NCBI RefSeq assembly: GCF_001956585.1
Contig: NZ_MSRR01000003.1
Span: 97,891 to 161,890 of the forward strand
DNA length: 64,000 nucleotides
Direction of reading: 5' to 3'
From: Actinomyces naeslundii
GTDB taxonomy: Bacteria; Actinomycetota; Actinomycetes; Actinomycetales; Actinomycetaceae
In this document: positions 8,453 through 14,637 of the stretch, one piece after another
Position numbering within the stretch: position 1 is the stretch's first letter
Layout of the letters: each line of letters begins with the position of its first letter
The notes under the pieces: model-generated
The model's database searches: none
The model's input: only the letters and a program-made list of their open reading frames with translations
What the model was told of the DNA's origin: nothing
Position numbers and translations under genes: made by a program

Positions 8453-8842
8453 GATTCCTCCTGGAAGGCTTTCCTGAGAGCGGTCGGGCGATCGGGAACG
8501 ATGCCGCTGGCCCGGCGCGGGGGTGAACGGTTCCGACGGTCAAGGCATACAGTACGTGCTCGTCCGTGACCCCGTGTGACACATGACCGAACACCGGACG
8601 GACCGCCCTATGCTGGGGACCGCCCCGGAGCCTCGCGAACCGCTACGGAGCATCAAGGATGCATGACGGAGCCCTGCTGAGCCGGGGTGCCGGAGAATCA
8701 ATCGTCACAAAAACATCACGGGCGGCTTAACCGATACCCTTTCCCCGGTGCCGTTCCGGCATCCCGCCAACCTGGTCGTCAGCGATGCACCCGCATGACC
8801 GATCCGCCATCATCACCCTCACCTTCGACAAGGAGGCGCACC
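8453..8842. other. Divergent intergenic region between S9 peptidase and dxs
   Basis: 390 bases between two divergently transcribed genes, so both promoters should lie here. I see no convincing -35/-10 pair on either strand, no riboswitch-like structure and no tRNA. An in-frame ATG at 8795 is a possible earlier dxs start, but it has no good Shine-Dalgarno. A short TGTGACACA dyad occurs near 8575. Confidence 0.4.
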
Positions 8843-10915
8843 GTGCCAGCAGCTGAGCACACTGGTCGGCCCGCCGAGCAGACCAGCAGAGCGCTCCTGG
8901 CCTCTGTGCGAAAGCCCGCCGACCTCGACCGGCTCACCAGCGAGGACCTGGTGGCGCTCGCGGCCGAGATCCGTCGCCACCTCGTCGCCTCGGTTGCGCG
9001 CACCGGCGGCCACCTGGGTCCCAACCTCGGGGTCGTCGAGCTGACGATCGCCCTGCACCGCACCTTCCGCTCACCGCGGGACACCATCGTCTTCGACACC
9101 GGTCACCAGGCCTACGTCCACAAGCTGCTCACCGGCCGACAGGACTTCGCCCACCTGCGTGAGCGGGGTGGGCTGTCCGGCTACCCGTCACGGGCCGAGT
9201 CCGTTCACGACGTCGTGGAGAACTCTCACGCCTCCACCTCGCTGTCCTGGGCCGACGGCATCGCCCGGGCCAACCACCTCCAGGGGCACGACGAGCGCCA
9301 CGTCGTCGCCGTCATCGGTGATGGAGCCATGACCGGGGGCATGGCCTGGGAGGCCCTGGACAACATCGCCGACTCCTCCGACCGCCACCTGGTCATCGTC
9401 GTCAACGACAACGGTCGCTCCTACGCACCCACCATCGGGGGACTGGCTCATCACCTCGACGCGCTGCGCACCAACCCCGGCTACGAGCGCGTCCTGTCCG
9501 GGGTCAAGCGCACGCTCCTGTCCCAGGGGGCTCCCGGCCGGGCCGCCTTCGACGCCCTCCACGGCCTCAAGCGGGGGCTCAAGGACGTCCTGGTGCCCTC
9601 GGCCTTCTTCGAGGACCTGGGAATCAAGTACACCGGACCCGTCGACGGTCACGACATCACCGCCATCGAGTTCGCCCTCACCCGGGCACGCGAGTACGCC
9701 GAGCCGGTCATCGTCCATGTCATCACCGAGAAGGGGCACGGATACACCCCCGCCGAGGAGCACGTCCCCGACCGCTTCCACGCCGTGGGCAAGATCCACC
9801 CCGAGACGGGGCTGCCGGTTGTGGCCGAGCGCTTCGGATGGACGGCCGTCTTCGCCGAGGAGATCGTCTCCTTGGCGCAGCGCGACGAGCGGATCGTCGG
9901 AGTCACGGCGGCCATGCAGGCTCCCGTGGGCCTTCAGCCCCTGGCCGACGCCATGCCGGAGCGGGTCATTGACGTCGGTATCGCCGAGCAGCACGCGCTC
10001 ACCTTCTCCGCCGGGCTCGCCTTCGCCGGCATGCACCCGGTGGTGGCGCTCTACGCCACCTTCCTCAACCGAGCCTTCGACCAGGTGCTCATGGACGTCG
10101 CCCTGCACCGCGCGGGAGTGACGATCGTGCTGGACCGGGCCGGGATCACCGGAACCGACGGGGCCAGCCACAACGGCATGTGGGACATGGCGCTGCTGGC
10201 TCATGTCCCGGGTCTGCGCCTGGCCGCTCCCCGGGACGAGGCGACACTGCGCGACAGCCTGCGCCAGGCCGTGAGCGTCGGTGACGCCCCCACCGTGGTG
10301 CGCTATCCCAAGGGCACCCTGCCCGAGCCTCTGGCGGCGGTGCGTCGCCTCGGGCTGGAGGATGCTGAGAAGAGCCCGTACGACGCAGGCGTCGAGGGGG
10401 ACGCATCGGCGGGTGGGGCCTTGGGAGAGGTCTCCGCATTCGACGTCGTCGACGTGCTGCTCGAGAACCGCGAACCGGCTGACGCCCCGCAGCTCCTGCT
10501 GGTCGGCGTCGGAGCCATGGCGGCCCACGCCCATGAGGCCGGCCGGGCCCTCGAGCAGGAGGACCGAGCCGTCACCGTCGTGCACCCGCACTGGGTCATT
10601 CCGCCCCCTGGGCCTCTCGTGGCGGCAGCAGCCCAGGCCGACGTCGTCATCGTGGTCGAGGACGGCTTGGTTGATGGCGGCATCGGGTCCCAGCTGCGCG
10701 ATGCCGTTGAGGACTATCGGGCCGGCCGTCCCGATGCAGCCGGCCCACGGGTCTGGCGTCGCATCGGCATTCCGCGGCAGTTCATCGACACCGCCACCCG
10801 GGACCAGCTCCTCGAGGACTTCGGTATGCGCGCCCCCGATATCGCGGAGGCGGCCCGGGCCGCGGCCGACGGCGCTGCACGCGCTCCCGGCGTCCGGGAC
10901 CTTGGGGCCGAATAA
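8843..10915 (+). CDS. dxs: 1-deoxy-D-xylulose-5-phosphate synthase
   Basis: Thiamine-diphosphate enzyme condensing pyruvate and glyceraldehyde 3-phosphate, the first step of the MEP isoprenoid pathway. Visible motifs: GHLGPNLGVVELTIALH, HQAYVHKLLTGR, the ThDP-binding GDGAMTGGMAWEALDN..VNDNG block, TGPVDGHD, and the transketolase-type DVGIAEQHALTFSAGLA with the catalytic glutamate, then DRAGITGTDGASHNG. The GTG at 8843 is chosen because AGGAGG lies six bases upstream; this gives 690 aa, somewhat longer than the usual 620-640. The extra length is an N-terminal leader and a loop near ESPYDAGVEGD-type residues in the C-terminal third. It stands alone, divergent from the S9 peptidase, and upstream of the pfl locus. 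Confidence 0.95.
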   Translation: MPAAEHTGRPAEQTSRALLASVRKPADLDRLTSEDLVALAAEIRRHLVASVARTGGHLGPNLGVVELTIALHRTFRSPRDTIVFDTGHQAYVHKLLTGRQDFAHLRERGGLSGYPSRAESVHDVVENSHASTSLSWADGIARANHLQGHDERHVVAVIGDGAMTGGMAWEALDNIADSSDRHLVIVVNDNGRSYAPTIGGLAHHLDALRTNPGYERVLSGVKRTLLSQGAPGRAAFDALHGLKRGLKDVLVPSAFFEDLGIKYTGPVDGHDITAIEFALTRAREYAEPVIVHVITEKGHGYTPAEEHVPDRFHAVGKIHPETGLPVVAERFGWTAVFAEEIVSLAQRDERIVGVTAAMQAPVGLQPLADAMPERVIDVGIAEQHALTFSAGLAFAGMHPVVALYATFLNRAFDQVLMDVALHRAGVTIVLDRAGITGTDGASHNGMWDMALLAHVPGLRLAAPRDEATLRDSLRQAVSVGDAPTVVRYPKGTLPEPLAAVRRLGLEDAEKSPYDAGVEGDASAGGALGEVSAFDVVDVLLENREPADAPQLLLVGVGAMAAHAHEAGRALEQEDRAVTVVHPHWVIPPPGPLVAAAAQADVVIVVEDGLVDGGIGSQLRDAVEDYRAGRPDAAGPRVWRRIGIPRQFIDTATRDQLLEDFGMRAPDIAEAARAAADGAARAPGVRDLGAE

Positions 10916-11301: not shown

Positions 11302-13416
11302 ATGACCACTGAGGTCACAACATCTGCCACCACGGCGAGCGGCAATGACGCCTGGGAGGGCTTCGTTACCGGACCGTGGACCGAGGACATTGACGTCCGC
11401 GACTTCATCCAGCGCAACTACACCCCCTACGACGGTGACGCCTCGTTCCTCGCCGGCGCCACGGACAAGACTCTGCGCCTTTGGGACACCCTGGAGAAGA
11501 AGTACCTCTCCGAGGAGCGCAAGGTCCGCATCCTCGACGTCGACACCCACACTCCCGCCGACATCGACGCATTCCCGGCCGGCTACATCAGCGAGGACGA
11601 CGACGTCATCGTCGGCCTGCAGACGGACTCACCGCTGCGCCGTGCCATGATGCCCAACGGCGGCTGGCGCATGGTGGAGACCGCCATCAAGGAGGCGGGC
11701 AAGGAGGTCGACCCCGAGGTCAAGAAGATCTTCACCCGCTACCGCAAGACCCACAACGACGCGGTCTTCGACATCTACACCCCGCGCATCCGCGCGGCGC
11801 GCTCGAGCCACATCATCACCGGCCTGCCCGACGCCTACGGCCGTGGCCGCATCATCGGCGACTACCGCCGTGTGGCGCTCTACGGCGTCGACTTCCTCAT
11901 CGAGGAGAAGCAGAAGGCCAAGGACGCCGTGGCCGACGAGCCCTTCTCCGAGCACTGGGCCCGCTACCGCGAGGAGCACTCCGAGCAGATCAAGGCGCTC
12001 AAGAAGCTCAAGGTCATGGCCGCCTCCTACGGCTACGACATCTCCGGCCCGGCCAAGAACGCCCACGAGGCGGTCCAGTGGACCTACTTCGCCTACCTGG
12101 CCTCCGTGAAGTCCCAGGACGGTGCCGCTATGAGCATCGGCCGGCTCTCCGGCTTCCTGGACATCTACTTCGAACGGGACCTGCGCAACGGGGTCATCGA
12201 CGAGACCCGCGCCCAGGAGCTCATCGACAACATCGTCATGAAGCTGCGCATCACGCGCTTCCTGCGCACCATCGACTACGACCAGATCTTCTCCGGCGAC
12301 CCCTACTGGGCCACGTGGTCCGACGCCGGCTTCGGTGAGGACGGTCGTGCCCTGGTCACCAAGACCTCCTTCCGTCTGCTGCAGACCCTGCGCAACCTCG
12401 GGCCGGCCCCGGAGCCGAACATCACGATCTTCTGGGACGAGAACCTGCCGCAGGGCTACAAGGACTTCTGCGCCCTCATCTCCATCACGACCTCCTCCAT
12501 CCAGTACGAGGCCGACGAGCAGATCCGTGACCACTGGGGTGACGACGCCGCGATCGCCTGCTGCGTCTCCCCGATGCGCGTGGGCAAGCAGATGCAGTTC
12601 TTCGGCGCCCGCGTCAACTCCGCCAAGGCCCTGCTCTACGCCATCAACGGTGGGCGCGATGAGATGACCGGCAAGCAGGTCGTCACCGGGCTGCCCGGCG
12701 TCGAGGGCGACGGCCCCCTCGACTTCGACGACGTGTGGGACAAGTACGAGAAGATGCTCGACTGGGTGGTGGCCACCTACGTCGAGGCCCTCAACATCAT
12801 CCACTACTGCCACGACCGCTACGCCTACGAGTCCATCGAGATGGCGCTGCACGACTCCGAGATCGTGCGCACCATGGGCTGCGGCATCGCCGGCCTGTCG
12901 ATCGTGGCCGACTCGCTGGCGGCCATCAAGTACGCCAAGGTCACCCCGGTTCGTGACGAGACCGGCCTGGTGGTCGACTACGTCACCGAGGGCGACTTCC
13001 CGATCTACGGCAACGACGACGACCGCGCCGACGACATCGCCGCCACCGTGGTCCACACGATCATGTCGAAGATCAAGGCCCAGCCCTTCTACCGGGACGC
13101 CATCCCGACGCAGTCGGTGCTGACCATCACCTCCAACGTCGTCTACGGCAAGGCCACGGGATCCTTCCCCTCGGGGCACCAGAAGGGCACTCCCTTCTCT
13201 CCCGGTGCCAACCCGGAGAACGGCATGGACACCCACGGCATGGTCGCCTCGATGCTCAGCGTCGGCAAGCTCGACTACAACGACGCCCTCGACGGGATCT
13301 CGCTGACCAACACGATCACCCCGCAGGGGCTGGGGCGCACGCTCGATGAGCGCGTCGCCAACCTTGTGGGCATCCTCGACGCCGGCTTCGTCCCCGACGA
13401 CTGCGCCGAGATCTGA
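11302..13416 (+). CDS. pflB: Pyruvate formate-lyase catalytic body lacking its glycyl-radical domain
   Basis: Formate C-acetyltransferase, converting pyruvate and CoA to acetyl-CoA and formate in anaerobic metabolism. The 704-aa product matches the PFL barrel throughout ([54 protein letters not shown]) and carries the catalytic cysteine pair in [21 protein letters not shown] (Cys420-Cys421) and the [19 protein letters not shown] region. It stops just after [12 protein letters not shown], the point where one-piece PFLs (E. coli 760 aa) continue into the RVSGYA glycyl-radical domain; that domain is the next gene, 76 nt downstream. The ATG at 11302 follows GAGGAGG. Alone the product cannot form the glycyl radical, so activity should require the small subunit. 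Confidence 0.94.
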
Positions 13417-13492
13417 TCCAGCCATCTGTCGGCTGATCGCACCGCAGCAATTTCTCCACACATCAGTAACACCACCTCAGAAAGGGGCCACC

Positions 13493-13738
13493 ATGGCCAC
13501 GTACGAAGAGCGCCTCGCCTCCATGAAGGCACAGCGTCAGGACAACGGCGGCGTCAAGGGCCTGTACCACGCCAACATCAACGTTCTGGACCGCAACACC
13601 CTCGAGGACGCGATGGAGCACCCGGAGAACTACCCGAACCTCACCGTTCGCGTCTCCGGCTACGCCGTCAACTTCGTCAAGCTGACTCGCGAGCAGCAGC
13701 TTGACGTTCTCCACCGCACCTTCCACGCCCAGGCCTGA
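13493..13738 (+). CDS. grcA: Stand-alone glycyl-radical subunit of pyruvate formate-lyase (GrcA-like)
   Basis: An 81-aa protein equivalent to the C-terminal domain of one-piece PFL. Residues 1-20 ([20 protein letters not shown]) have no counterpart in that domain; from about residue 22 the sequence follows it closely: [20 protein letters not shown], then [15 protein letters not shown], with Gly56 in RVSGYA as the predicted radical site. E. coli GrcA (YfiD, 127 aa) is a spare copy of this domain used to rescue damaged PFL; here it is the only copy seen, because the adjacent pflB lacks the domain. It has its own Shine-Dalgarno (AAAGGGG) before the ATG at 13493 and lies between pflB and pflA, fitting an obligate two-subunit enzyme. 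Confidence 0.93.
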
Positions 13739-13761
13739 GCCCTGGAGCACGGCGAGCGGTC

Positions 13762-14637
13762 ATGACGCAGACCACGACGACCGTGCGCGACGGCGGTCGG
13801 GACCAGGACTTCCTGGCCCCGGCCGCTCGCTTGCGCGGGGCGGGTATCGGCGGCCTCGAGGAGCTGACGGATCTTCAGCGCTCTGAGCGCCTGGAGCGGA
13901 TGCGGGCCGGCGAGCTGGGCTCGATCCACTCCTGGGAGCTCGTCACCGCGGTGGACGGTCCCGGTACCCGGATGACCGTCTTCCTCAACGGATGCCCTCT
14001 GCGGTGCCTGTACTGCCACAACCCCGACACCTTCCTCATGAAGGACGGGGAACCGGTGGAGGCCGAGGAGCTTCTGCGTCGTATGCGCCGCTATCGGGGA
14101 GTGTTCCGCGCGTCCAAGGGCGGAATCACGCTGTCAGGCGGCGAGGTACTCATGCAACCCGCCTTCGCGGGCAGGCTCCTGGCCGGTGCCAAGAAGATGG
14201 GCATTCACACCTGCATCGACACCTCCGGGTTCCTGGGGGCCAATGCCAGCGACGAGATGCTCGACAACATCGACCTGGTCCTGCTCGACGTCAAGAGCGG
14301 TGACGAGGAGACCTACAAGAAGGTGACGGGTCGTTCCCTGGCGCCGACGATCACCTTCGGTGACCGCTTGGCGGCCAAGGGGATCGAGATCTGGGCCCGG
14401 TTCGTCCTGGTCCCGGACCTGACGGACGACCCCGAGAACGTTCACAACGTGGCCCGGATCATTGAGCGCTGGGGCTCGGTCAGCCGTGTTGAGGTGCTGC
14501 CCTTCCACCAGATGGGGACCGACAAGTGGGATGCCCTGGGGCTGACCTATCAGCTGCGGGACACCAGGCCACCGGAGCCGGAGCTCGTGGAGTCCACGCG
14601 CGCGATCTTCCGTTCCTACGGTTTCGAGGTCCACTGA
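13762..14637 (+). CDS. pflA: Pyruvate formate-lyase activating enzyme (radical SAM)
   Basis: Radical S-adenosylmethionine enzyme that installs the glycyl radical on PFL. The 4Fe-4S cluster motif CPLRCLYC is visible (Cys78, Cys82, Cys85), followed by the GGITLSGGE SAM-binding segment and FLGANASDEMLDNIDLVLLDVKS. At 291 aa it is longer than E. coli PflA (246 aa), mainly by about 50 N-terminal residues before GSIHSWELVTAVDGPGTR. It starts 23 nt after the small glycyl-radical subunit, so the three genes form one functional unit. Its substrate should be Gly56 of the small subunit, presumably presented on the PflB body. A strong hairpin follows the gene. Confidence 0.95.
   Translation: MTQTTTTVRDGGRDQDFLAPAARLRGAGIGGLEELTDLQRSERLERMRAGELGSIHSWELVTAVDGPGTRMTVFLNGCPLRCLYCHNPDTFLMKDGEPVEAEELLRRMRRYRGVFRASKGGITLSGGEVLMQPAFAGRLLAGAKKMGIHTCIDTSGFLGANASDEMLDNIDLVLLDVKSGDEETYKKVTGRSLAPTITFGDRLAAKGIEIWARFVLVPDLTDDPENVHNVARIIERWGSVSRVEVLPFHQMGTDKWDALGLTYQLRDTRPPEPELVESTRAIFRSYGFEVH

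Follow-up and report, generated by a model that had tools for sequence, protein, structure and literature searches.

In the 64,000-nucleotide (nt) stretch of Actinomyces naeslundii DNA considered here (NCBI RefSeq assembly GCF_001956585.1, contig NZ_MSRR01000003.1; hereafter, the window), pyruvate formate-lyase (PFL) is naturally split into two adjacent genes, pflB (11302..13416), encoding a catalytic body of 704 amino acids (aa), and a gene for an 81-aa glycyl-radical protein (13493..13738), followed by the activase gene pflA (13762..14637), all on the plus strand. This confirms an observation made earlier from the letters of the window alone (hereafter, the sequence-only reading). The two-gene PFL is real and conserved, most likely represents a two-subunit enzyme, and, judging from sequence comparisons, it is very probable that the products of pflB and the 81-aa gene are the two subunits of one obligately two-component PFL. 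PFL is a radical enzyme destroyed by oxygen at its radical glycine, and in several Actinomycetota associated with humans or animals no PFL other than the two-part form was detected.

PflB has the features of a PFL body without the radical domain. In profile searches it matches PF02901 with 664.9 bits and passes the cut-off of TIGR01255, the NCBI PFL model (997.5 bits, compared to 994.2). The adjacent catalytic cysteines expected of a PFL are present as Cys420–Cys421 (codons at 12559..12564, identified by the ACCVSP motif and alignment with PDB chains), and the glycyl-radical domain, also expected of a PFL in the same chain, is absent from it. The body matches positions 1–681 of the 744-position TIGR01255 profile, and the small protein, positions 680–742; in PF01228, with 106 positions, the body covers only 1–65, and the 81-aa product, only 65–106. 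In alignments with Escherichia coli PFL, PflB residues 16–696 correspond to residues 9–693, so that the body stops at the equivalent of residue 693, and residues 18–78 of the small protein correspond to residues 696–756. The radical glycine is Gly56 in RVSGYA (codon at 13658..13660, placed by alignments). A spacer of 76 nt separates the pflB stop from the small gene, which is preceded by a Shine-Dalgarno-like AAAGGGG (13481..13487) and ends 23 nt before pflA, whose 291-aa product is a radical S-adenosylmethionine activating enzyme (TIGR02493, 302.3 bits with a cut-off of 231.75). The description given by the sequence-only reading, with a body carrying the cysteine pair and ending before the C-terminal domain, a separate radical-domain gene with its own translation signal, and the activase next to it, therefore holds.

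The small protein already belongs to an NCBI family, GrcA2 (NF008341; 166.3 bits with a cut-off of 145), and this name, "autonomous glycyl radical cofactor", labels it as a spare part. All 23 members of our set A3 match the same model at E up to 0.001 (by E-value only). In this respect the sequence-only reading is to be corrected: the family had been recognized, under a spare-part name. The N-terminal extension, T3–R15 (13499..13537), is predicted from segment conservation, and at low confidence from a structural model, to form a helix with R7, M11 and R15 on one face. Among 81 distinct segments, selected without a motif filter, four residues at fixed spacing are conserved (R in 81, M in 80, K in 77, R in 81); the R-M-R spacing corresponds to the i, i+4, i+8 face of a helix, and the putative extension helix is nearly invariant. 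In 23 distinct Actinomyces small genes the ratio of nonsynonymous to synonymous polymorphism (pN/pS) is 0.074 for the extension and 0.077 for the core, both being under purifying selection.

The split is not a peculiarity of one assembly. The genome containing the window is 99.94% complete, and a search of it for another full-length PFL yielded no further PF01228 (Gly_radical) match and no second PF02901 body. Both half matches are present in 36/36 same-genus genomes searched, of which 31 contain the two halves alone and five, one extra full-length match; in the 20 loci read out of these 36, a stop between the genes was always found, with the body ending at the cut. As the halves are found in all 36 relatives and the stop in 20 loci, while the split recurs in other families with a conserved start region of the small gene, it is extremely unlikely that a one-piece gene has merely been broken up by a sequencing or assembly error, and nothing was found in favour of this. 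Candidate fusions inside the genus, with small matches in open frames of 837–916 aa, were rejected, a stop between the genes being present in 7/7 read (L032–L038). A programmed read-through or frameshift joining both frames into one chain might be suggested by species where both genes are in the same frame with a single stop between them. We considered 72 sources, of which 69 yield the gene pair (not L161, where the pflB frame is broken off in its contig, nor L176 and L179, where no body was found), comprising 64 distinct loci. In these, the distance between pflB and the small gene varies from –4 to 225 nt (median 63), the two genes fall into frame classes of 27, 22 and 15 loci, the pflB stop is TGA in 42, TAA in 20 and TAG in 2, and an SD-like (Shine-Dalgarno-like) site precedes the small gene in 63. 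This variation, combined with the SD-like sites, excludes a conserved read-through or frameshift and indicates two polypeptides, so that a single joined chain is highly improbable. In L126 and L163 pflB seems to overlap the small gene by 1 and 4 nt, respectively, hinting at translational coupling.

Taken literally, the name GrcA2 would make the small protein a spare part of the GrcA/YfiD type, repairing a one-piece PFL, and its radical domain is indeed 65% identical to E. coli GrcA. However, the identity is higher, 77–86%, to eight one-piece enzymes compared (from Actinomycetota and an Oscillospiraceae genome), and a one-piece enzyme from Bacteroides is 70% identical. This suggests that the domain came from a PFL that was split, and not from a recruited GrcA. 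The spare-part model TIGR04365 (GrcA/YfiD) yields 84.4 bits, compared to the cut-off of 170, and matches only from residue 14 on. A spare part is expected to coexist with a repairable one-piece PFL, and neither the genome, with no other PF01228 or PF02901 match, nor the 31 relatives mentioned above contain a second radical domain, while in each of the 20 loci read the body stops at the cut. Three extra full-length enzymes from the Actinomyces group, two from the five genomes and one from a further same-genus genome, were classified as the PFL2-3 type (746–759 bits with a cut-off of 678.2) and not PFL, as they score only 169–180 against 994.2. Taken together, these data make the repair function a very improbable explanation, and the small protein should be an obligatory subunit, since no one-piece PFL to repair was found in the genome. 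It is likewise highly unlikely that we observe a decayed PFL with halves that are no longer functional, as the extension and the radical domain are under purifying selection, the cysteine pair and the glycine loop are intact, and a PflA cysteine motif is found downstream in 61 of the 64 distinct loci; of the three loci without it, two are cut off by the end of the contig. An obligately two-component PFL is thus the preferred reading; where the sequence-only interpretation proposed that the radical subunit is dedicated and probably obligatory, it is supported by the sole radical domain, conservation in the genus, purifying selection and own translation signals. In the literature, A. naeslundii is reported to secrete formate (PMC6493303), and Mobiluncus mulieris to be a hypophosphite-sensitive formate producer (PMC12208373). 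In some same-genus genomes (L004, L007 and L066), an additional glycyl-radical enzyme of the PFL2 type is encoded, in which a GCVE motif replaces the cysteine pair.

In such a two-component enzyme the body would supply the substrate and coenzyme A sites and the Cys-Cys pair, while the barrel strand that the body lacks, the loop with the glycyl radical and the final helix would come from the small subunit. The N-terminal helix of the small subunit presumably binds a patch on the body specific to split enzymes; the small subunit would then be activated by PflA, encoded next door, and would hold the radical near Cys420–Cys421. Assembly, activation, catalysis, the docking site and exchange after oxygen damage are all inferred.

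At 475 positions of the body, at least 90% of the 52 split enzymes share a residue, and residue counts at these positions yielded the candidate docking site. The two positions least shared with one-piece enzymes are A581 and T582, each present in 50/52 split, 0/9 nested one-piece and 1/59 other one-piece enzymes. They are followed by F696 (codon at 13387..13389), which is specific to split enzymes and lies in the PflB tail beyond the cut (50/52, 1/9 and 1/59, respectively). H585, one helical turn from the first two, is found in 51/52 split and 1/9 nested enzymes. In the body up to residue 692, only at positions 581 and 582 is a residue shared by at least 96% of the 51 split rows and replaced in each of the nine within-clade one-piece enzymes, which have Q/K and L/K/W there, respectively. 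Six of these nine are closely related, so that the nine amount to no more than two or three independent observations. In four split rows, one of residues 581, 582 and 585 is changed (two A to S, one T to A and one H to Y); the E. coli counterparts, counted by hand on the alignment, are V578, D579 and E582. The three residues are on one helix (codons 581–585, 13042..13056), and the patch around A581, T582 and H585 may form the groove where the small-subunit helix docks.

Several observations weigh against this reading of the pair and its docking. H585 is not exclusive to split enzymes, as it occurs in 11/59 other one-piece enzymes. When the 63 distinct small genes are taken together, constraint is weaker on the extension than on the core (pN/pS 0.288 vs. 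0.155). In the structural model the extension helix has a predicted local distance difference test score (pLDDT) of about 40–51, so that its docking is not confident, and placement of the radical domain is expected anyway, since the underlying alignment contains one-piece PFLs. A Cellulomonadaceae metagenome-assembled genome (MAG; locus L163) has no PflA motif beside the pair and contains a second small-gene match. Finally, as far as the available part of PMC8683613 tells, a cut at residue 695 of E. coli PFL is not free, activation being 32-fold below that of cleaved PFL with YfiD.

The pair has the same fold, Cys-Cys pair and RVSGYA loop as the one-piece E. coli PflB (PDB entries 1h16, 2pfl, 1mzo), and differs from it in the cut of the chain at about E. 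coli residues 693–696 and in a small subunit that starts separately and carries a conserved extension. GrcA/YfiD and T4 Y06I are also small free glycyl-radical domains, acting, by the available text of PMC8683613, on oxygen-cleaved one-piece PFL, whereas no one-piece PFL has been found in the genome considered here. In the same text, the laboratory complex tPFL(1-695):YfiD is active (kcat, the turnover number, is 121 per s, compared to 105 for PFL), and extra C-terminal PFL residues and the YfiD N-terminus matter for binding. The laboratory cut is only a few residues from the natural one, the complex itself being artificial, and the N-terminal half of YfiD is described as disordered, while the small subunit has the R-M-R helix instead. 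As the natural cut is near E. coli residue 695, the conserved helix and the patch are a plausible answer to weak activation.

Scanning of relatives with the N-terminal 47 aa of the small protein yielded at least 80 named loci. Among the matches listed, the split is found in Actinomyces, Trueperella, Arcanobacterium, Schaalia, Helcobacillus, Rothia, Propionibacterium and Corynebacterium, as well as in one Dermabacteraceae and one Cellulomonadaceae genome; in Trueperella, only the small gene is clear, as the contig has an earlier interruption in the pflB frame. Eight of nine split genomes checked contain exactly the two halves. The ninth, the Cellulomonadaceae MAG mentioned above, has two small radical-gene matches and one body match. 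In a sample of 200 Actinomycetaceae genomes, 184 have a match, approximately 107 with partial matches only and approximately 77 with at least one full-length match (hand count), and hence the family includes both split and one-piece enzymes. For another member, Varibaculum cambriense, PMC4177395 reports no PFL. One-piece enzymes with the GL[YF]HANIN motif are present in Sanguibacter inulinus, an Oscillospiraceae genome, Candidatus Ancillula and a family (f3) that we take to be Bifidobacteriaceae, as one of its genomes has the same junction as Ancillula, which is assigned to Bifidobacteriaceae by NCBI. In this family, 41/61 genomes match the small protein, and all matches listed are in open frames of at least 480 aa, that is, in one-piece enzymes; a genome search found no separate small gene in the Sanguibacter and Oscillospiraceae genomes. 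This distribution does not support an oral, oxygen-exposed niche, proposed in the sequence-only reading as the reason for the split, since split enzymes occur in Corynebacterium, Propionibacterium, Arcanobacterium and Schaalia, and one-piece enzymes, in Sanguibacter and Bifidobacteriaceae. The benefit of replacing an oxygen-damaged part, like the niche argument, is unproven.

Quick trees were built from rows thinned by hand from 126 to 87 and to 49 (the latter including new rows), leaving out L161. In the 87-row tree, the enzymes of the type described above (type 1) form a clade of 49 rows, 44 split and 5 one-piece, with Shimodaira–Hasegawa-like approximate likelihood ratio test (SH-aLRT) support of 100 and a branch of 1.0, and the five one-piece enzymes nest inside the split clade. 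A single clade of split rows is compatible with the approximately unbiased (AU) test (p 0.456; 33 vs. 16 rows), and for this reason re-fusion of a split gene is not claimed. Type 1 may have arisen either by a fission with subsequent re-fusion or by one fission in a lineage whose stem was one-piece.

A second type of split, GrcA3, is observed in families f35 and f56 from the same phylum and another class, supposedly Coriobacteriia. It also comprises a pflB body and a separate small radical gene, but the cut lies about 25 residues earlier, the body having a Cys-rich or acidic tail and the preceding helix being encoded at the start of the small gene (8/8 loci read, L261–L268); the small protein lacks the R-M-R helix. 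Three of three small proteins scored pass the GrcA3 cut-off, and seven bodies of this type form a separate clade (SH-aLRT 100). Given the different cut and tree position, the GrcA3-type split most simply arose by an independent event. Many f35 genomes also carry full-length radical enzymes, and in this type the pair may therefore not be obligatory. PDB chains 38la_A and 38lb_A, annotated as formate acetyltransferase, have no radical domain, and 38lb aligns with the GrcA3 type over its tail, indicating that such a body has already been solved by others, who may thus know of split PFLs. PDB 38la ends right after an SLGK motif, which may mark a further, third cut point or reflect the construct used. 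Among the records listed by searches of an open-access library without preprints, we found no paper on split PFL in Actinomycetota, although one may exist; the available part of PMC11528403 does not mention split enzymes.

A broader scenario, which we regard as possible but rather doubtful, is that PFL was cut at least twice independently, that in the Actinomyces type the new helix and patch co-evolved and made the radical domain a cartridge to be exchanged by the cell after oxygen damage, and that one-piece enzymes of Bifidobacteriaceae and Sanguibacter are later re-fusions having lost both. A natural two-part PFL would make recovery of PFL after oxygen directly testable, and would be a ready-made split radical enzyme for engineering. 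It also illustrates that a spare-part name in a database can hide a probably essential subunit.

Directly upstream of pflB, the frame at 8687–10915 resembles dxs, presumably encoding 1-deoxy-xylulose-5-phosphate synthase. At the protein level, 1533 phage records match the small protein, with no Actinomyces phage among the 8 matches listed, and one scan of viral contigs yielded four weak loci. The record MT838895 (L274), labelled as a bacteriophage, contains a GrcA3-type pflB, a small radical gene and pflA; it looks bacterial, and also holds a frame that we take to be malic-enzyme-like.
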